From a candidate division FCPU426 bacterium (GTDB taxonomy: Bacteria > Oederibacteriota > Muellerivitia > Muellerivitales > Muellerivitaceae), in assembly GCA_003152075.1 (NCBI GenBank), contig PLZG01000081.1, positions 7,840-42,509 of the forward strand: a stretch of 34,670 nt of DNA, given 5' to 3'. Both the position numbers and the translations under genes were made by a program. Positions 1 through 10,254 of the stretch are shown here, piece after piece (position 1 is the first letter of the stretch; every line of letters starts with the position of its first letter). Below the pieces are notes generated by a model. The model was not told where the DNA came from. It made no database searches and saw nothing but the letters and a program-made list of their open reading frames with translations.

Positions 1-3000
1 GTCGAGAGATTAATAACCGCCGTCGTGCCGATATAAGTGGCTGTCCCCATCAAGGTGTCACCACCATCAACAATACCGTTTCCGTTGTTGTCCAGGTAAA
101 GATTCACGGACTTTATACCCGTGGTAAAGGTCCCTGTTCCCGAAACCGTCAAGGTAACGCTGGTAATGGTCGCATTGTTGTTCCCCGGGTTGCCCAACTG
201 GAATTGCATGACAGGCAGGGTGACACCGGGCAGTTGATTGGAATTACCGGGCGAGGACGACCCGATGGAAACCGACAAGGTCACCGATGTGGCGGTAGCC
301 GTGGCCGTAATCGTTGAGGTGGAGGTAAAGGTCCTTGTTGCGGTTGAAGAAAATGTTCGGGTTGGGGTTAGGGTTGAGGTAGATGTGAATGTTGGGGTAG
401 AAGTGGACGTCGAGGTGTTTGTAGGGGTTCCCGTATTGGTGAAAGTGGCCGTTGGGCTCAAGGTTCCTGTAAAGGTACTAGTAGGAGTTTTTGTATGAGT
501 GGCGGTTGAGGTAAAGGTGGGAGTGCTGGTTGAAGTAGAGGTCGAGGTTGACGTGGAACTGGAAGTAAATGTGGCCGCGGAAGTGAAGGTCGACGTAAAG
601 ACTGAGGTAAAGCTAAAGGTAGGTGTTGCCGTGCTGGTGGAAGTTGAGGTGGATGTGGAGGTCGAAGTAAGGGTATTCGTCTTAGTTGGCGAATTGGTTG
701 GGGTCCATGTATTGGTGGATGTTCCGGTTGAGGTAAAGGTATTCGTGGGTGACACCGTTCCAGTGGGGGTGTTGGTGGGTGTCCCCGTATTGGTCGATGT
801 ATTGGTCACCGTTGGGGTGAATGTCCGGGTGTTGGTGGAAGTCCGGGTAAAGCTGTTGGTCGAGGTTGGTGTTGACGTATTCGTATTGGTGAACGTTGGT
901 GTGTTCGTGCGCGTCGAGGTTGAAGTAAAGGTCGACGTCGCAGAGGCCGTATAAGTCGATGTCGAACTAGATGTGGAAGTCGATGTGGAGGTTGAAGTAG
1001 CCGTGTTGGTCTTGGTGGGTGTATTGGTCAAGGTCGAAGTATTTGTGAAAGTTCCAGTATTGGTCGGGGTATTGGTAGGCGGCACCGTTCCGGTTGGGGT
1101 ATTAGTAGAAGTCCCGGTATTGGTAGAGGTATTGGTCACTGTCGGCGTAAAGGTTCGGGTATTGGTCGCGGTGCTTGTAAGCGTGGAAGTATTTGTCGAA
1201 GTGAAAGTGGGAGTGTTGGTCCGGGTATTGGTTGAGGTTGAACTCGGGGAAAACGTCACCGTCGGCGTGTTAGTTGAAGTCGAAGTGGAAGTGAAGGTTG
1301 AAGTCCCGGTGAACGTCCGGGTGTTGGTCGCCGTGCTGGTAAAAGACAAGGTGCTGGTCATAGTTAGCGTGTTGGTGGATGTGTTCGTATTAGTGTTGGT
1401 TGAAGTAAAAGTGCTTGTGTTCGTTGCTGTAACCGTTGAAGTATTGGTCGGCGTAATGGTTCGGGTGGGAGTATTAGTCGAAGTCGAGGTATTAGTGGAG
1501 GTGCCAGTCGCCGTGAAAGTATTAGTTGGCGGTACGGTTCCAGTGGGCGTGTTGGTCGAAGTTCCCGTATTAGTTGAGGTCGGCGTATTGGTGCGGGTAT
1601 TCGTCGAGGTGTTAGTAAAGGTAGCGGTTGAGGTGTTGGTGGAAGTGTTGGTATTCGTAAAAGTGGGTGTATTGGTACGGGTGTTTGTTGAGGTATTCGT
1701 GTTTGTCGAAGTAGAAGAAGGGGTGTTCGTTGATGTGGCCGTGTTGGTTGATGTGTTAGTCCGCGTATTCGTGAAAGTCGACGTGTTGGTATAGGTAGAT
1801 GTGAAGGTGTTCGTAGAAGTGCTTGTCAGGGTGTTCGTTGGAGGGACCGGCGTGTTCGTAGAAGTATTGGTAGGTGTACTGGTCCGCGTGTTGGTGGAAG
1901 CCACCGTACTGGTAAACGTCGAGGTAAAACTGTTGGTAACTGTATTGGTAGGAGTGTTCGTGTAAGTGTTGGTAGATGTACTGGTTCGCGTGTTCGTGAA
2001 ATTCGAAGTAAAGGTGTTCGTAGACGTGCTGGTCGGAGTATTCGTTGGAGGAACCGGCGTGTTTGTGCAAGTATTTGTGGGCGTATTAGTTCGTGTATTC
2101 GTGGATGTCGGGGTATTGGTATAGGTTGGGGTAAAAGTATTCGTAGGCGGAACCGGCGTATTTGTATAAGTATTAGTAAGTGTGTTAGTTCGCGTATTCG
2201 TAGATGTTGGGGTATTGGTAAAAGTTGAAGTGAAAGTGTTCGTGGGAGGAACGGGTGTATTGGTAAAGCTATTAGTCGGCGTAAAAGTCCTGGTCGGGGT
2301 AAAAGTAAGAGTGTTGGTGGGTGGTATGGGGGTGTCCGTAAATGTTGAAGTATAGGTATTGGTCGAAGTAAAAGTCTTTGTGAACGTAAAAGTTTGCGTA
2401 TTGGTTGGTGGCACCGGCGTATTGGTAAAAGTATTCGTGGTCGTATCGGTTGACGTGAAGGTATTAGTTGAAGTGAACGTTCTCGTAAAGGTAAACGTTG
2501 GGGTATTAGTCGGCGGAACAGGTGTATTGGTAAAGGTTCGGGTTGGGGTACTTGTAAAGGTATTGGTCGGAGGAACCGGCGTATTGGTATAACTTGAAGT
2601 ATTTGAAGGCGTCGGAGTGGGGGTGTTACAGATAATCGTGATGGCAATAGTATTACTACTCGCGGGGCCGCCTCCCGGCCAAGTAGCCGTCCCATGATCA
2701 CTGACCACCTGGCATGAATCGCTGGCATTGAAACTATACGCTATGACATTGAAATTAATCGGAACACATGATCCACCGGGCAAGTTGTTCACCGTCCAGG
2801 TAATTGGAAATCCAGAAGTATTAACCGGATTGATCGTCACCGGAGCTCCGGATACCGTTACCACCCACTGGCTGAAGTTCGGGCCGTTTTGAGACCAGCT
2901 CAGGGGATTGGTCACATTATCCACGACGGTAACGCTATTAGCGGTTACCGAACCCGTAGCGTTACAAACCATAATGGTCATGGGTATATTGGTGCCGTTT

Positions 3001-4313
3001 TCTTGGTAACCGGAAGTCGGCCCTCCTGTTGTTTTGGTTAAGTTGATGTTTGGGGGGACAGTCGTCGGAGTTGAGGTGGGGGTTCGGGTGGGGGTATTCG
3101 TTGGTAGGGGCGGTCCCCCGCTGCCGCAAGTGGGCACAGCCGAAGCTAAAAAGTTCTTTTCAGCGGTTCCCCAGGTGGACGGGTTAAAACTCCAATCCGC
3201 CAAAAGGTTCGGACAAGAATTAGGTGTCATAGACCAAGCTGTTCCACCCGCAATGCCCGAAGTGCCGGTCAGCCAGGCGAACATATTGTTGTCAAAGGTG
3301 GAATCGTCCGTACCGCAACTGGTCGAGGGACCATATTCCCCCACGAAAACAGGGTAACTGGACAAAAGGGAACTGGGAACTTCAGCGTTCCAACTGGCGG
3401 AGGAAGTGCCGTCGTTATTTCCGTAAAGATGGGCGGCAAACATTAACCCATTTCCCCGGTTGGTCAATGAACCAGCGGGAAGACCGTTCAGATTGGCGCA
3501 CCAATGCAGGCCTCCCAAGAGACAAACATTGTTGGCGCCGGACGCCCGTACCGCGTTAAGAAGCGCCTGCATTCCAGGGGTAGAAAAAGATGCCCCGGTA
3601 AGTGTGCCGCCATTTAACCATGTGTTGTAACCAGTGGAATCAGTTACAGGCGGGCTGATGTTATCGTTTCCCGAATCGTAAGGTTCATTGTAGAGGTCGA
3701 AAATAACCGCTGGGTTATTGGCATAAGCCGCTCCCACCGATCTCCAAAAGGTAACCGCGTTGGCGTCGGCCATGGGCTGCTGTTTGGTGCTTGCGGCATT
3801 CCCCCACCCGCTCCCACAGGGCGCCGAGGCCGTTGAACTGGTACCCGACCAATGGAGATCCAAGATGACGTAAGCATTTTGCCCCGAACAATAATTAACG
3901 ATATTGGAAATGTATCCCTGGTAGTTGGCCTGGTTCGCGCCACCACATCCAAACCAATAATCCTGGTTCAAAGGTAGCCGGATGATATTACTTTTCCAAG
4001 TCGCAACAGCCGTCTGGGCTACTGTTAATGTATTACCACCGTTACCTGACGGGGGACCTTCCCCAGTACTTGAAAATTCGAGGCCATCCACATCCACACC
4101 TTTTAACAAGGCAACACAACCACTACCCGTTTGAAGTTTATTACCCGAAACTTGGAGGGCAGGTGGAGTAGCTTCAACTGTTGCGGTTGCCAGGAGCAGG
4201 AGGAGAAAAAAACCAATACACTTAAAACGTTTTTTGGACCGGTTAAAAAAATAGTCGCAAAAAAGTCCTTCAATACTTCGAATGGATAGGGGTGACATAT
4301 TCGTTTCAGTCAT
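1..4313 (-). CDS. Secreted GH5-type cellulase (endoglucanase), 3' end beyond window
   Basis: The frame is open from ATG 4313 to base 1 without a stop, giving at least 1437 codons; the C-terminus lies outside the window. An in-frame TAA directly precedes the ATG, and no good ribosome site is seen; Met6 is an alternative. A signal peptide follows a long N-region (KKRFK, then a Leu-rich core, cleavage near VEA-TP, residue 48). Residues about 50-390 carry GH5 hallmarks: VILDLHW, FDLYNEPY with the acid/base Glu210, AAHLYG, and VGEYG with the nucleophile Glu326. A short TNTPT linker leads to a DUF11-like beta domain (about 419-560). A Thr-rich linker of about 780 residues follows (562-1343), then the start of a domain also found in the expansin gene at 6991-10254. 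The family cuts beta-1,4-glucans outside the cell. Exact substrate (cellulose or another beta-glucan/mannan) cannot be read from the sequence. Confidence 0.88.
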   Translation of the reverse strand, partial: MTETNMSPLSIRSIEGLFCDYFFNRSKKRFKCIGFFLLLLLATATVEATPPALQVSGNKLQTGSGCVALLKGVDVDGLEFSSTGEGPPSGNGGNTLTVAQTAVATWKSNIIRLPLNQDYWFGCGGANQANYQGYISNIVNYCSGQNAYVILDLHWSGTSSTASAPCGSGWGNAASTKQQPMADANAVTFWRSVGAAYANNPAVIFDLYNEPYDSGNDNISPPVTDSTGYNTWLNGGTLTGASFSTPGMQALLNAVRASGANNVCLLGGLHWCANLNGLPAGSLTNRGNGLMFAAHLYGNNDGTSSASWNAEVPSSLLSSYPVFVGEYGPSTSCGTDDSTFDNNMFAWLTGTSGIAGGTAWSMTPNSCPNLLADWSFNPSTWGTAEKNFLASAVPTCGSGGPPLPTNTPTRTPTSTPTTVPPNINLTKTTGGPTSGYQENGTNIPMTIMVCNATGSVTANSVTVVDNVTNPLSWSQNGPNFSQWVVTVSGAPVTINPVNTSGFPITWTVNNLPGGSCVPINFNVIAYSFNASDSCQVVSDHGTATWPGGGPASSNTIAITIICNTPTPTPSNTSSYTNTPVPPTNTFTSTPTRTFTNTPVPPTNTPTFTFTRTFTSTNTFTSTDTTTNTFTNTPVPPTNTQTFTFTKTFTSTNTYTSTFTDTPIPPTNTLTFTPTRTFTPTNSFTNTPVPPTNTFTSTFTNTPTSTNTRTNTLTNTYTNTPVPPTNTFTPTYTNTPTSTNTRTNTPTNTCTNTPVPPTNTPTSTSTNTFTSNFTNTRTSTSTNTYTNTPTNTVTNSFTSTFTSTVASTNTRTSTPTNTSTNTPVPPTNTLTSTSTNTFTSTYTNTSTFTNTRTNTSTNTATSTNTPSSTSTNTNTSTNTRTNTPTFTNTNTSTNTSTATFTNTSTNTRTNTPTSTNTGTSTNTPTGTVPPTNTFTATGTSTNTSTSTNTPTRTITPTNTSTVTATNTSTFTSTNTNTNTSTNTLTMTSTLSFTSTATNTRTFTGTSTFTSTSTSTNTPTVTFSPSSTSTNTRTNTPTFTSTNTSTLTSTATNTRTFTPTVTNTSTNTGTSTNTPTGTVPPTNTPTNTGTFTNTSTLTNTPTKTNTATSTSTSTSTSSSTSTYTASATSTFTSTSTRTNTPTFTNTNTSTPTSTNSFTRTSTNTRTFTPTVTNTSTNTGTPTNTPTGTVSPTNTFTSTGTSTNTWTPTNSPTKTNTLTSTSTSTSTSTSTATPTFSFTSVFTSTFTSAATFTSSSTSTSTSTSTSTPTFTSTATHTKTPTSTFTGTLSPTATFTNTGTPTNTSTSTSTPTFTSTSTLTPTRTFSSTATRTFTSTSTITATATATSVTLSVSIGSSSPGNSNQLPGVTLPVMQFQLGNPGNNNATITSVTLTVSGTGTFTTGIKSVNLYLDNNGNGIVDGGDTLMGTATYIGTTAVINLS
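285..2630 (-). repeat. Giant Thr-rich linker repeat inside the cellulase gene
   Basis: About 780 codons encode imperfect TNTPT / TFTST / TSTST units in which nearly every second residue is Thr. In the part nearest the catalytic domain (about 1830-2590) a PVPPTNT phrase recurs at irregular spacing of roughly 18-36 residues; PPTNT variants also occur near 1080 and 1530. At the DNA level the units are not identical: Thr and Asn codons vary freely in the third base. The reverse strand reads as Val-rich open frames, which are artefacts of GTN opposite ACN. Such linkers are typically extended, exposed and O-glycosylated in secreted bacterial enzymes; glycosylation here is inference. Confidence 0.9.
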
Positions 4314-4521: not shown

Positions 4522-6738
4522 TTAGAACACCATACCCTTTTCAAGAATCTCTTCCGTTAAGCCGCGTTTTTTCATGATGACGTGGAGCTGGTGTCGGAGG
4601 ATTGGCATTCGTTTAGCCAAGTCCCGAAGTTCTCTAGATGTTATGACAAGTGTTGTTACTTCGGTAGAAGCTTGCGCACTGGCATTTCGCTTGTCCGAAT
4701 AGCCCATGGCAACGTTTTCGCCGAAAAAATCCCCCGCTTTAAGGTTCGTGGAAAAAACAACTTTCCCATGGTCATTTTTTCTTAAAATCTCAACCTTTCC
4801 CGAGGAAATAACGTAAAAATCCTCAGTCTTGCTTCCCTGCCGCACGATCAATTCGTCCTTCTTGAAAGTTTGGCTCTTGGCCAAAAGCGAGATTTCATGT
4901 TTGGCGGTGGGGTCTAAATCTCGGAAAATCGCAACAGAGGATATCACCGGCCGTTTTTTCCACAAACTCGAGAAACTTTCTTTCAAATCATTTTTCTCCA
5001 CGAACTCCAGGAACAAATCACCCGCCAACTTGAAGAGGATGACCGGTGTGCGGGCAACTACCGTGGCGGTAGTCTTCGACTTGTTGATGAGGGACATTTC
5101 CCCAAAGAAATCACCGCCCTCCAAGGCGGCTAAAAAGGAATCCTTTTTGTTCTCCGGGTCCAGCACATCCACCGTTCCCGCGAGTATGAAATAAAAGGAA
5201 TCACCCACTTGTCCTTTTTTAACCACCTCATGCCCCGTGGGAAATTCAACCACCTGGCCTAAGGAATAAATGATGTTGATCCAATTGAGATCCTTGACCT
5301 CAAAAAGCTTCAAAGTCCGGAAAACACCGGTGTAAACCGATTGGGAAAAATTTCGTTCCTTAAGAAAGGTCTTTCCCCACCCCGGCTTAGCGACTTGATA
5401 TTTTTGGGCGTCCATCTTGGAGGGATTCACATGGTAAAAAAGGAACTCGGTCCCAGGATATTTCAGGATGCTTTCATCCCAGTTGGCCGGGTCACCATGG
5501 ATGGGCCCACCTCCCGCGTCAATCATGGCCAGGCATTCGTCCCCACGAACCAAGTTTTTCATCCGGTCAAAATGCTCCCGGCTAACCGCCCCAGCCTCAA
5601 CCAATTGTTCCATCCCCTTGAAATGGTCCAAGTCGCTGGAATGAAGGATGGTATGGTTCTTCCCCTTTTCGTCCTGCACTGTCACCCGGAAGCCAATGGT
5701 GGGAATGGAGTGGACGGTGTAAAAGAATTCCCAGGTCGCACCGTACATGTGATAAGTCTTTCCCGGTATGACTTCCACAAATTTCATCATGAGCTTCACC
5801 ATATCCGTCGATTCGCCGATAATATTCGCCACCTTTAACACTGTGCACTCGTATATTTCCCGGGTGGACATGAGGGTGAATGTGTGTTCCGAGAGCATGA
5901 GCTCGCTGAGGGCGCAATGGTCGTCATGGACGTGGGTCTGAATGATGGCGGTAAGCCGGTCCTTGGCGACACCCACTTGCTTAAGGTACTTGCTGATACC
6001 GGCGGGCGAATCCACCAAAAATCCGTTTCCATTTACCCATAACAACATTCCCGTGGTGGGCCCTTCAGGATCAAAGCCGGTGTAACAGCCCAAGACTTTC
6101 AACCGAAGAGCCTCCGGCTTTTCAACTTCCCCGGTTAAATCCACCAAAGGCGGCAGTTGTTCGCCCTCGAAATTTAAGTCCAGAACCTGAGTTTCCCCCT
6201 TAGAGGAAATCTCAAAGCGGTTATTTCCCATCCTTTTAATCCAATAGTCCTTGGAATCTGAAAAAATCGGGACAACCACTTCCCCTTCTTCTTCCGGTAA
6301 GTGGACAAATTCGAACAGATCCTCGATTTGTTGGACCTCCTTGCCCTTCTTGATCGCCATGCCCTCGGCCATGTTGACAAGAGCATCAATCCGGCTCTTA
6401 CTCAAACCCCATTTTTTCAATTCTCCGCGGCTAGGCCCCAATAAAGTAATACGGAGAATGTCATAAAGTCTTTGACACATTTTTTTCGTTCCCAAAACGC
6501 GGAACTTGTTTCCCCTTTGGTAACCCTGGTCCACAAACAAGAACCAATAGCCCAGGAATTCAAAGGCCATTTGGGATATGCCGTTTTTATGGGAAATATC
6601 GGGAAGTATTCCAACATGAGGAATTTTCTTTTTTTGCTTGAGTAGGGCTTTGAGAATTTCAGGTGGACTTCCCATCAGGGCGCTGGCGGTTGGCCCTTCC
6701 AAATGGAAACATCCCGGGGCGATGGAAGTGATTTGCAT
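4522..6738 (-). CDS. Metallo-beta-lactamase-fold protein with two C-terminal cyclic-nucleotide-binding domains
   Basis: 738 residues starting at ATG 6738, with an AAAGGAG ribosome site five bases upstream. An N-terminal part (about 1-200) that I do not recognise precedes an MBL-fold hydrolase (about 210-470) with the metal motif THVHDDH (His269, His271, Asp273, His274) and a later HSSDLDH motif for the bridging Asp. Two cyclic-nucleotide-binding (Crp/PKA-type) domains follow, about 480-590 and 605-715. Both have the GDFFGE phosphate-binding turn (Glu547 and Glu674). The first has Thr where cAMP-binding domains have Arg; the second keeps an Arg (DKRNAS). This suggests that the second is the better candidate for ligand binding. 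No signal peptide is seen, so it is likely cytoplasmic. It lies between two secreted polysaccharide-active genes on the same strand, but gaps of about 210-250 bases argue for its own transcript. The substrate is unknown. Confidence 0.8.
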   Translation of the reverse strand: MQITSIAPGCFHLEGPTASALMGSPPEILKALLKQKKKIPHVGILPDISHKNGISQMAFEFLGYWFLFVDQGYQRGNKFRVLGTKKMCQRLYDILRITLLGPSRGELKKWGLSKSRIDALVNMAEGMAIKKGKEVQQIEDLFEFVHLPEEEGEVVVPIFSDSKDYWIKRMGNNRFEISSKGETQVLDLNFEGEQLPPLVDLTGEVEKPEALRLKVLGCYTGFDPEGPTTGMLLWVNGNGFLVDSPAGISKYLKQVGVAKDRLTAIIQTHVHDDHCALSELMLSEHTFTLMSTREIYECTVLKVANIIGESTDMVKLMMKFVEVIPGKTYHMYGATWEFFYTVHSIPTIGFRVTVQDEKGKNHTILHSSDLDHFKGMEQLVEAGAVSREHFDRMKNLVRGDECLAMIDAGGGPIHGDPANWDESILKYPGTEFLFYHVNPSKMDAQKYQVAKPGWGKTFLKERNFSQSVYTGVFRTLKLFEVKDLNWINIIYSLGQVVEFPTGHEVVKKGQVGDSFYFILAGTVDVLDPENKKDSFLAALEGGDFFGEMSLINKSKTTATVVARTPVILFKLAGDLFLEFVEKNDLKESFSSLWKKRPVISSVAIFRDLDPTAKHEISLLAKSQTFKKDELIVRQGSKTEDFYVISSGKVEILRKNDHGKVVFSTNLKAGDFFGENVAMGYSDKRNASAQASTEVTTLVITSRELRDLAKRMPILRHQLHVIMKKRGLTEEILEKGMVF

Positions 6739-6990: not shown

Positions 6991-9900
6991 TTAACGGATC
7001 AAAACTATTCTCTTAATTTTCCGATCAAAGGGTTCTACCAAGTAAAGGACATAAACGCCGCTGGCACAAGGATCCCCGTTTTTGTTGGTCCCGTCCCATT
7101 GATAGTTTTTATTTACCGGAGAGTTCAAATGGGTCGTATCAAGGGTCTTGATATGTTCCCCAACTGAGTTATATATCCACAAGTCATAATTCCCTGGAAA
7201 TTTGTTGTATTGCACGTTGATGTTGACCACTTTATTCATGGACGGGCGAAAAAGGTTCAGGTCCACAGTAAATATATCGACGAATGGAACTGTCGCAGTT
7301 GGAGTGGGCGTAAAGGTCCTGGTTGGCGTACGCGTATTCGTAATTGTGGAGGTGTAGGTCACCGTCGGAGTGTTGGTAGCAGTAAAGGTATTAGTCGAGG
7401 TGCCAGTAAAAGTAGGTGTGCTGGTATTGCTTGGAGTATAGGTTGATGTTCCCGTATTCGTTGGCGTGTTGGTGCCAAAGGCGATAGTAACCGTCGGGCC
7501 ACTCAAAGGCATTCCATTGAACATTACCCCACCAGTAGAATTCGTCCCGGTGCCATTCGTTAAACTCGGGATGTAGGTCCCATTTGTGGCTGACCCGGAA
7601 TAATCATAAGTAACCAGGAAAGTCTGGCTGGCCGCCACGGGAATCACGGTGGTTAAGTTGAAAGTCACTGTCCCGCCCGAGTAAGTCGCCGTGCCAACTA
7701 GTGTGTCCCCGCCATCCACCACACCATTCCCATTGTTATCCAAGTAAAGTTTTACAGAGGTTATTCCTGTGGTGAAATTACCCGTTCCAGTGCCCGTAAA
7801 GACAAGGCTGTTAACCGTGGCCGGGTTGCTTCCTGGGTTGGTTAATTTAAATTGTAGCACCGGCAAGCCTGTGACCCCCGGAAGCTTGGTGGAACTGGTT
7901 GGTGGGTTGGGACCCATATTAACTGATAATGTCACCGGTGTTGGCGTCGCGGTGGCAGAGGGGGTGGACGTGAAAGTAAGTGTTTTGGTGGGTGTCCCAG
8001 TGTTAGTGGGTGTGGCCGATGGACTTAAGGTACCGGTAAAAGTCAAAGTTGGGGTATAGGTGATCGTGGGGCTACTGGTTAAGGTTGCTGAATTGGTAAT
8101 GGTGAAGGTTGAGGTAACCGTAAAAGTGGTGGCAAAGGTTGAAGAACTGGTTGGAGTTTTGGTGGACGTGAGTGTAAAGGTGCTAGTTGATGTCCCCGTT
8201 GAAGTGGAGGTGGACGTTCCAGTCAAGGTCGGGGTCAGGGTCTTTGTTGGGGTGGCCGTCGGTGAAACAGTTCCCGTAAAGGTCCAAGTCGGCGTAGAGG
8301 TAACGGTGGGCGTATTGGTAACTGTGAGAGTATTCGTTTTGGTCAAGGTGAAGGTGTTGGTCAGGGTATTGGTCGCGGTCGGGGTGTTGGATTTGGTGAA
8401 AGTGGAGCTACTAGTAGGGGTAAAGGTAAAGGTATTTGTAACGGTACTGGTGAATGTCGGGGTTCCCGTACTGGTTGGAGTAAAGGTGTTTGTGAAGGGA
8501 GCGAGGGTATTAGTAAAGGTTGGGGTTGAAGTGTTAGAAAAGGTAAATGTGTTGGTCTTGGTGGATGTAGCGGTAAGTGTCAAAGTATTAGATGGTGTAT
8601 TGGTTAATGTGGGGGTGTTTGTTTTCGTAAAGGTATTGGTGGGTGTTGAGGTCAAAGTAAAGCTATTAGTCGGCGTGGGAGAACGGGTAAAGGTTGGTGT
8701 CGGTGTGTTGGTGGGACAAGCCCCGTAAAAGCCGAAATCATCAATAAACACAGTTTGGGTTCCTGAGGACATCCCTAAACCCGTGGCGAAATCTATCTCA
8801 CCCACCTGGGCCGTGCTCCAACTGGCTCCCCCCGTGGTAAAAGCAGAAACGGGTATATCCACCACCTGCCATGTACCCGTAACACCACCCGGAAGATAGG
8901 TCGAAAGGGTTACTGGTGTGGAAGCGGTGACTCCACCCGCACCCGCCCCCCCCCAATCCGCCAAGGTGATAGTCATGCTGGTAACGGGAGCACCCGTCGT
9001 CGCGCGAATCCAGAATTCAAGAACGCTGTAGTTGGCCAAATTGATAATACGTGGTGAAACGTTGCTATATTTTGCCCAGTTCCATCCCAAACCAGCGAAG
9101 AAGGAAGCGGCTGGCCAGTTGTATGCGAGTTGTAAATCATTGGAGCCCCCATGAGGGGAAGTTGTTACTTCCGAAACCGTAGTGTTGGTCGTCCAGTTGC
9201 TTCCTGAAGCATAATTAGTTGCAGCGGTTTCCCCGTCATAAAGAACGTTTTTGCAACCCGAGAGGGGGGTAAAGGTAGGGGTCTGGGTCACGGTGAATGT
9301 GTCAGTAAAGGTGGCAGTTGGTGAACCCGGCGTATTGGTTTTAGTGGGTGTGTTGGTCGGCCCTATCACGCAACCCTGCATCTGGGCGGTGGTAGTGCCA
9401 TAGGCAACAAAAGAGGAATTGTTCGCTTGCATCAAGGGAGAAATGCTATTGATGGGACCCAAGGTGACCGAATTTCCACGAACATCCGTAATCACATAAT
9501 AAAGTGGACCGGCCGTGTTAGTTTGTCCCGTTCCACCCCAAAAATTTGGGAGGCTGTCCGTGGTATCCCGGTTAAGGTTAGTAAAGGGCCCTCCCGCGCT
9601 TGTACCTACCGCAACGGACTGAATCGGAAACAAAACATCCCAAAAAACTATCGGGTGCCAGCCATTATTACTGCCGTCTTTGAACTCATAAGTGATATTA
9701 CCCGGGCCATTGTTGTAGGAAATATTGGCCGACCCGGCCAGGGGGCATTGGACAAAGTGCCAAGTTACCTGGCCAGCCCCAGGCGCGGTTGGGCAACCAC
9801 CGGTATTGACCGATCCATTTGTGCTTCCCGCAATGGAAGCGCAGCCGGGCGAGTTCACCAATTCATCGTATGCTGTCGGCGACAAATCCAAATGATTGGA

Positions 9901-10254
9901 ATTCGAACCGCAGGTTCCGCACTCATCCACGATCATAACGGTTGTCGAATGGCCGTTATAAGTCAGCATCGCGCAGGAGCCACAAGCGGCGCCGTTTTTC
10001 CAGCTTCCGGGATCAATCGCCGCGTAGTGGTTCTGATCGAACATATTCCAGTTCACTCCGCAGGCACCCAACGCGGTGGAATTTGAGGTCCCCAGATAAT
10101 AGGTCGTGGTTTGTTCGGTTACGGTAAATACGGTGGGGGGATCACTGGGACAATACTTGGTTGTGGTGAAGTTGATTTGGGCGAAGGCCGGGGAAAGAGG
10201 CATCAACCACAAAAAGGAATATAAAATTAAATTTCTATAGGTAAATAATTTCAA
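6991..10254 (-). CDS. Secreted multidomain bacterial expansin with carbohydrate-binding and FlgD-like C-terminal domains
   Basis: 1087 residues. The start is TTG 10254, preceded by an AGAGGG site; no later ATG leaves a usable signal peptide. The signal peptide ends at AFA-Q (residue 26). Residues about 40-150 form an expansin-type double-psi barrel: GACGV, GxxCGSCA, VDECG (Asp110) and HLDLSP (Asp123), matching the two key Asp residues of bacterial EXLX1. Residues about 163-275 resemble the CBM63-like second expansin domain (WHFVQCP, ITDVRGN). A linker leads to a beta-sandwich domain (about 335-512) ending IDDFGF, like CBM11-type cellulose-binding modules. A long Thr-rich linker, the domain shared with the cellulase gene (about 775-925, DNNGNGVVDGGD loop), a third linker and a FlgD-like Ig domain (about 992-1087, WDGTNKNGD) complete it. 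Expansins loosen cellulose networks without cutting them. The role of the C-terminal domain in surface attachment or sorting is inference. Confidence 0.87.
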   Translation of the reverse strand: MKLFTYRNLILYSFLWLMPLSPAFAQINFTTTKYCPSDPPTVFTVTEQTTTYYLGTSNSTALGACGVNWNMFDQNHYAAIDPGSWKNGAACGSCAMLTYNGHSTTVMIVDECGTCGSNSNHLDLSPTAYDELVNSPGCASIAGSTNGSVNTGGCPTAPGAGQVTWHFVQCPLAGSANISYNNGPGNITYEFKDGSNNGWHPIVFWDVLFPIQSVAVGTSAGGPFTNLNRDTTDSLPNFWGGTGQTNTAGPLYYVITDVRGNSVTLGPINSISPLMQANNSSFVAYGTTTAQMQGCVIGPTNTPTKTNTPGSPTATFTDTFTVTQTPTFTPLSGCKNVLYDGETAATNYASGSNWTTNTTVSEVTTSPHGGSNDLQLAYNWPAASFFAGLGWNWAKYSNVSPRIINLANYSVLEFWIRATTGAPVTSMTITLADWGGAGAGGVTASTPVTLSTYLPGGVTGTWQVVDIPVSAFTTGGASWSTAQVGEIDFATGLGMSSGTQTVFIDDFGFYGACPTNTPTPTFTRSPTPTNSFTLTSTPTNTFTKTNTPTLTNTPSNTLTLTATSTKTNTFTFSNTSTPTFTNTLAPFTNTFTPTSTGTPTFTSTVTNTFTFTPTSSSTFTKSNTPTATNTLTNTFTLTKTNTLTVTNTPTVTSTPTWTFTGTVSPTATPTKTLTPTLTGTSTSTSTGTSTSTFTLTSTKTPTSSSTFATTFTVTSTFTITNSATLTSSPTITYTPTLTFTGTLSPSATPTNTGTPTKTLTFTSTPSATATPTPVTLSVNMGPNPPTSSTKLPGVTGLPVLQFKLTNPGSNPATVNSLVFTGTGTGNFTTGITSVKLYLDNNGNGVVDGGDTLVGTATYSGGTVTFNLTTVIPVAASQTFLVTYDYSGSATNGTYIPSLTNGTGTNSTGGVMFNGMPLSGPTVTIAFGTNTPTNTGTSTYTPSNTSTPTFTGTSTNTFTATNTPTVTYTSTITNTRTPTRTFTPTPTATVPFVDIFTVDLNLFRPSMNKVVNINVQYNKFPGNYDLWIYNSVGEHIKTLDTTHLNSPVNKNYQWDGTNKNGDPCASGVYVLYLVEPFDRKIKRIVLIR
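7285..7479 (-). repeat. Thr-rich linker 3 of the expansin gene
   Basis: About 65 codons of TNTPT/TYTPS-type repeats separate the shared domain from the C-terminal FlgD-like Ig domain. The repeat is imperfect at the DNA level. Confidence 0.8.
7935..8712 (-). repeat. Thr-rich linker 2 of the expansin gene
   Basis: About 255 codons of TNTPT/TFTST-type repeats join the CBM-like domain to the domain shared with the cellulase. The composition is the same as in the cellulase linker, with degenerate third codon positions, but the linker is about one third as long. Confidence 0.85.

Follow-up and report, generated by a model that had tools for sequence, protein, structure and literature searches.

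A divergent modular expansin from a candidate division FCPU426 bacterium, probably delivered to the cell surface

Results and Discussion

A 34,670-nucleotide stretch of DNA from a candidate division FCPU426 bacterium, here called the window, encodes a divergent modular expansin. From its sequence and the predicted structure of its parts, we consider it fairly likely that this protein belongs to a cellulolytic bacterium, loosens cellulose as a non-lytic expansin and reaches the cell surface by a type IX-like route. We prefer this explanation because the protein combines an expansin core and both of its key Asp residues with a carbohydrate-binding-module (CBM)-like module, Thr linkers and a tail found throughout its family, and because genes for a GH5 cellulase and another expansin are clustered with its own.

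Gene and protein architecture

The expansin-type open reading frame (ORF) occupies window positions 6991 to 10254 on the minus strand, whereas the plus strand there is rich in stop codons. Its TTG start codon is preceded by an AGAGGG-like ribosome site. The protein, its parts and two neighbouring genes are laid out as follows.

6991..10254, minus strand: expansin-type multidomain secreted protein, 1087 aa, TTG start
10180..10254, minus strand: signal peptide, aa 1-25 (...PAFA/Q), read by eye from the sequence
9775..10125, minus strand: expansin D1, double-psi beta-barrel, about aa 44-160, from profiles, alignment and fold
9364..9774, minus strand: expansin D2, CBM63-like beta-sandwich, about aa 161-297; predicted model aligned over both domains of 7wvr, 4js7 and 2bh0
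9259..9363, minus strand: Thr/Pro linker 1, aa 298-332 (35 residues), 40% Thr and 17% Pro
8716..9258, minus strand: CBM11/CBM30-like beta-sandwich, aa 333-513, fold match to 6r31 (CBM11) and 1wzx (CBM30)
7936..8715, minus strand: Thr-rich linker 2, aa 514-773 (260 residues), 44% Thr
7480..7935, minus strand: shared Ig-like domain, aa 774-925, present also in the GH5 protein and the paralogue
7255..7479, minus strand: Thr-rich linker 3, aa 926-1000, 42% Thr over aa 928-1000
6994..7254, minus strand: C-terminal FlgD-like domain, probable T9SS-type sorting tail, aa 1001-1087, from FlgD_ig, CHU_C and TIGR04183 (family tails)
4522..6738, minus strand: metallo-beta-lactamase-fold protein with two cNMP-binding domains, between the expansin and the GH5 cellulase
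3..4313, minus strand: GH5 cellulase (Cellulase, E 6e-30) with Thr linkers and the same shared domain, running off the window

A sequence-only reading of this DNA, which did not name the strand, had given the order of domains as expansin core, CBM-like module, Thr linkers, shared domain and FlgD-like end, and this proved correct; the three linkers that we measured contain 40-44% Thr. The shared domain of the window protein yielded faint Ig-like matches only, and a PDB sequence search with it returned no match.

Expansin core

Searches with the single sequence gave weak matches only. The whole protein scored 20.4 bits against DPBB_1, under the curated cut-off, and against the NCBIfam model NF041144 (expansin_EXLX1) it reached 63.7 bits as a whole and 70.9 bits with the core cut out; since the cut-off is 100 bits, it is not filed in that subfamily. 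We gathered 20 expansin homologues from related genomes by phmmer with --max, which keeps homologues with long linkers, and made an alignment and a profile from them. This family profile found solved expansins, with 7wvr as the best match (E 3e-29) and 2bh0 also detected (E 2e-11), which shows that the assignment to the expansins did not arise by chance. A D1-D2 model built by AlphaFold2 on the homologue alignment (mean pLDDT 73) matched 7wvr, 4js7, 4jcw, 2bh0, 9ms4 and 9ms5 in Foldseek, all with probability 1.00, spanning both domains of the solved expansins at target-normalised TM values of 0.67-0.80; the best match was again 7wvr (E 6e-13). Set against D1 and D2 of EXLX1, the modelled core is a double-psi barrel followed by a CBM63-like sandwich, matching solved two-domain expansins as the earlier reading had predicted.

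Asp110 and Asp123, which had been picked out as conserved, are both present and are invariant in the 20-sequence alignment. Thr51 is kept in 90% or more of the homologues, and several Cys residues are invariant, as in an exported protein. Sequence alignment places Thr51, Asp110, Cys112 and Asp123 at BsEXLX1 Thr12, Asp71, Tyr73 and Asp82, respectively, so that Cys112 occupies the Tyr73 position. The Clavibacter expansin likewise has a Cys there (PMC5072189). Tyr73 is thus a feature of some expansins only, and its absence does not exclude membership.

In D2, of the BsEXLX1 aromatic triad W125/W126/Y157, W126 aligns with Trp199 and W125 with Gly198, and Y157 is not clearly aligned. Trp239 of the window D2 is invariant among the 20 homologues. 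The CBM63-like second domain proposed earlier stands at the level of the fold only, W126 being the sole triad position aligned with an aromatic residue. With Gly198 in the place of W125, the binding surface of D2 may differ from that of BsEXLX1. We conclude that the window protein is a divergent modular expansin. Judging by its sequence, its model and the analogy with known expansins, from which the core mechanism follows, it probably loosens cellulose without cutting it.

CBM-like module

A predicted model of the CBM-like module (pLDDT 74) gave 6r31 (CBM11, E 1e-6) and 6r3m as the top matches in a fold search, followed by CBM30 (1wzx, TM 0.69). No curated CBM family or Pfam family passed its cut-off for the window copy, which scored 17.3 bits against CBM30, below cut-off, and a PDB sequence search with the module returned no match. 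Among seven homologous modules, Pfam CBM_11 weakly matched three (best E 0.0018), and a xyloglucan-binding domain also matched 3 of 7 (best E 1.7e-8). The CBM11-like assignment made earlier thus agrees with the predicted fold, but the Pfam CBM_11 cut-off was not reached. Only two copies of the module occur in the window's genome, both in expansins, and the seven family members that bear it form one group (support 86/99) in a tree of all 20 expansins.

Genomic neighbourhood and family

Leftward of the window expansin, on the same strand, lie the metallo-beta-lactamase/cNMP-binding gene, the GH5 cellulase and, just left of the window, a second expansin. An 'nn' assembly gap immediately to the left of window position 1 (L037:7839-7840) interrupts the GH5 reading frame; past it, the shared domain and FlgD-like tail of the GH5 protein go on in another frame. 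The second expansin repeats the domain order of the window protein and is 55% identical to it. A metallo-beta-lactamase/cNMP gene also adjoins an expansin in another species, G001 (L045:5025-7241). Assembly contamination was considered and rejected, since the order of an RmuC-like gene (as we presume it to be), an expansin and the metallo-beta-lactamase/cNMP gene recurs in G001, an FCPU426 genome of the same genus. Expansin genes of relatives have GH5, GH8, GH9 or GH30 genes nearby in some cases (G001, G004) and housekeeping genes around them in others. Goldbacteria, which fall within the FCPU426 cluster by 16S, were sorted or captured on cellulose and have 24 CBM11 copies and active cellulases; the paper describing them makes no mention of expansins (PMC7031533).

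The window's genome encodes six such expansins, compared with five in G006, at least three in G004 and one or two in other genomes. Among the 45 phylum genomes, 7 contain relatives: six belong to the window's family, which counts eight genomes here, and the seventh lies outside it. Beyond the FCPU426 group, a scan of 84,980 species with two peptide patterns, which could miss more distant relatives, detected only three Herpetosiphon relatives with 25-27% identity. G006 has an orthologue of the window expansin with the same order of domains; either a real frameshift or an assembly error has divided this gene into two overlapping ORFs (L047:4161-7810). Two expansin cores in the window's genome, L039 (G000:C56) and L038:9184-14364 (G000:C66), are nearly identical, with branch lengths of 0 and 0.025, reflecting a recent duplication or an assembly duplicate. 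The public MAG JAJPJW01, titled 'Proteobacteria bacterium Centralia_MAG_561', appears to correspond to G006, which groups in the window's family; its title looks wrong. The order of domains in the 1087-residue protein, which had been called unusual, is indeed new within the range of our searches, as is the lineage that carries it, but the protein is not a single oddity: its genome encodes five paralogues besides it, and the family is specific to this clade. The family consists of divergent, modular expansins that are probably surface-delivered.

C-terminal tail and type IX-like machinery

The tail matched FlgD_ig at 21.2 bits within the whole protein, under the cut-off, and at 27.6 bits when cut out, passing the cut-off of 27 by 0.6 bit. 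It also matched CHU_C (E 2e-4) and scored 13.6 of the 23 bits set as the cut-off of TIGR04183. Across the family, TIGR04183 and PF18962 (the Por_Secre_tail models) each matched 9 of the 11 complete tails at E of 1 or less (best E 1e-6). A FlgD/Por_Secre_tail-like domain stands at the extreme C terminus of all 11 complete family expansins, whose signal peptides were read by eye. Paralogue tails are strongly divergent, with 10-25% identity to the window tail. The neighbouring GH5 and GH9 proteins weakly show an FlgD_ig tail like that of the expansins, and PF18962 matches at 17 places in the window's genome, 9 of them over the cut-off.

Since the tail matched those of type IX cargo, we searched for the corresponding machinery. 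A Sov/SprA homologue of 1988 residues (L089:5308-11274, G000:C39, minus strand) scored 203.3 bits, just above the curated cut-off of 200; its identity rests on TIGR04189, because a PDB search with it gave no match. Such homologues were present in 16 of the 19 phylum genomes searched. PorV-family matches numbered 29 in the window's genome, the best at E 3e-52, over the cut-off. Among the window's genome and 11 relatives, these barrels are unusually many, reaching 56 and 66 in two phylum mates. In at least one ORF (G000:C20, 758 aa), a PorV match seems to be combined with an FlgD_ig match. Peptidase_C25 (PF01364), the catalytic domain of PorU, was absent from the window's genome. Matches to the PorU model NF033707 occurred in 12 of 12 genomes and were rejected as PorU, being confined in the window's genome to the tail region. 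GldM (TIGR03517) gave zero matches, and likewise zero in control genomes.

Because the genome encodes a Sov/SprA homologue and many PorV-family barrels, we read the tail as a probable type IX-like sorting domain. The earlier claim of a FlgD-like terminus is upheld by the FlgD_ig match of the cut-out tail, but in view of these homologues and of the Por_Secre_tail matches in family tails, a probable sorting domain is a better reading than a flagellar one. On these grounds, we infer that the tail serves as a sorting signal of a type IX-like system. Alternatively, it might be a mere structural Ig-like module, the protein exiting by another route and being freely released, as known secreted expansins are. 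The FlgD_ig fold is indeed a general one, the window copy does not reach the cut-off for T9SS tails, and neither the PorU sortase nor GldM was found (the latter in a search that had no positive control); a structural role nevertheless fits poorly with a domain that is always at the extreme C terminus, in expansins and neighbouring glycoside hydrolases alike, and with a genome that holds SprA and PorV homologues besides the 17 PF18962 places. We regard this alternative as somewhat improbable, though a serious contender.

According to one review, type IX secretion does not extend beyond the Fibrobacteres-Bacteroidetes-Chlorobi group (PMC11205867); in a survey of genomes, Bacteroidetes alone had it (PMC4793230). 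SprA homologues through most of this phylum lie outside the group usual for the system. The literature that we searched does not link type IX secretion to expansins; one type IX review mentions expansins generally and names no expansin cargo. Type IX export is the most doubtful part of our reading, and surface delivery is both new and less certain than the core mechanism. We suggest only tentatively, and with rather less than even confidence, that the expansins of FCPU426 bacteria form a surface-displayed set, exported as cargo by a type IX-like system that is found outside the Fibrobacteres-Bacteroidetes-Chlorobi group and works without the usual C25 sortase.

Proposed mechanism

In the mechanism that we propose, the signal peptide would take the protein across the inner membrane, and the C-terminal domain would direct it through the outer membrane via a type IX-like translocon, made of SprA with PorV-like partners, and retain it on the cell surface or close to it. 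The protein would be held on beta-glucan by D2 and the CBM11/30-like module while the D1 surface (Asp123, Asp110 and Thr51) would disrupt non-covalent contacts between chains, giving the co-encoded cellulases access to the loosened chains. Several results weigh against this explanation: NF041144, TIGR04183 and the CBM families all fall below cut-off in the window copy, Gly replaces W125, the tails are divergent, the genome has no Peptidase_C25, and GldM gave no match in a search that had no positive control.

The same architecture could belong to an adhesin, with the expansin core and CBM-like module only tethering the cell to cellulose and the D1 surface mechanically inactive. Long Thr linkers and a tail would suit a surface tether, two or more binding modules share one chain, and D1-D2 is divergent (70.9 of 100 bits). 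Pure binding, however, would not need Thr51, Asp110 and Asp123 to be kept at only about 40% identity, and in BsEXLX1 it is D2 that binds, not D1 (PMC5072189); we consider a pure adhesin unlikely. That D1 works as a barwin- or papain-inhibitor-like protein, as a 30-bit match to the papain inhibitor model NF041659 and Barwin matches in 7 of the 20 homologues might suggest, is highly improbable, since two-domain expansins are the best structural matches and single-domain barwin-like folds rank lower and cover D1 only.

If this tentative suggestion of expansins displayed by a type IX-like system is true, loosening of cellulose would be cell-bound, beside cellulases with the same tail, and such display would join free secretion and the cellulosome as a third mode in which expansins are deployed. 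The family adds divergent, multicopy expansins and natural CBM11/30-like fusions from an uncultivated, probably cellulolytic lineage. It also allows two questions to be put concretely: is there type IX export outside the range accepted for it, and do expansins perform better when anchored to the cell alongside cellulases?

Comparison with known systems

With BsEXLX1 and bacterial EXLX1 structures (2bh0, 4jcw, 9ms4, 9ms5), the window protein shares the D1-D2 fold, the D1 Thr and both Asp residues; it differs in having Cys for Tyr73, Gly for W125, extra insertions and four further regions attached. The Talaromyces leycettanus expansin 7wvr is closest by both profile and fold and has the CGAC and DECP-C...LDL cysteine pattern of D1 in common, but it is eukaryotic, and its solved chain (199 aa) is the two-domain core only. 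T9SS cargo with type A C-terminal domains, from Bacteroidota and Fibrobacteres, resembles the window protein in its signal peptide, its Ig-like domain at the extreme C terminus and the accompanying SprA/PorV homologues, whereas the host of the window protein stands outside the Fibrobacteres-Bacteroidetes-Chlorobi group, and no C25 sortase was found in its genome.

Modular bacterial expansins, in which the expansin is likewise fused to cellulose-related modules, include Clavibacter CelA (GH5-CBM2-expansin), the GH5-expansin of Xanthomonadaceae and the dockerin expansins of Clostridium clariflavum; fusions occur in about 10% of expansin-bearing species (PMC7729394; PMC5072189). In contrast to these, the window protein has no catalytic domain in its chain, carries its expansin at the N terminus, uses a CBM11/30-like binding module and ends in a FlgD/T9SS-like tail that replaces the catalytic or dockerin module. 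As far as searched, this combination of architecture and lineage is new among expansins.
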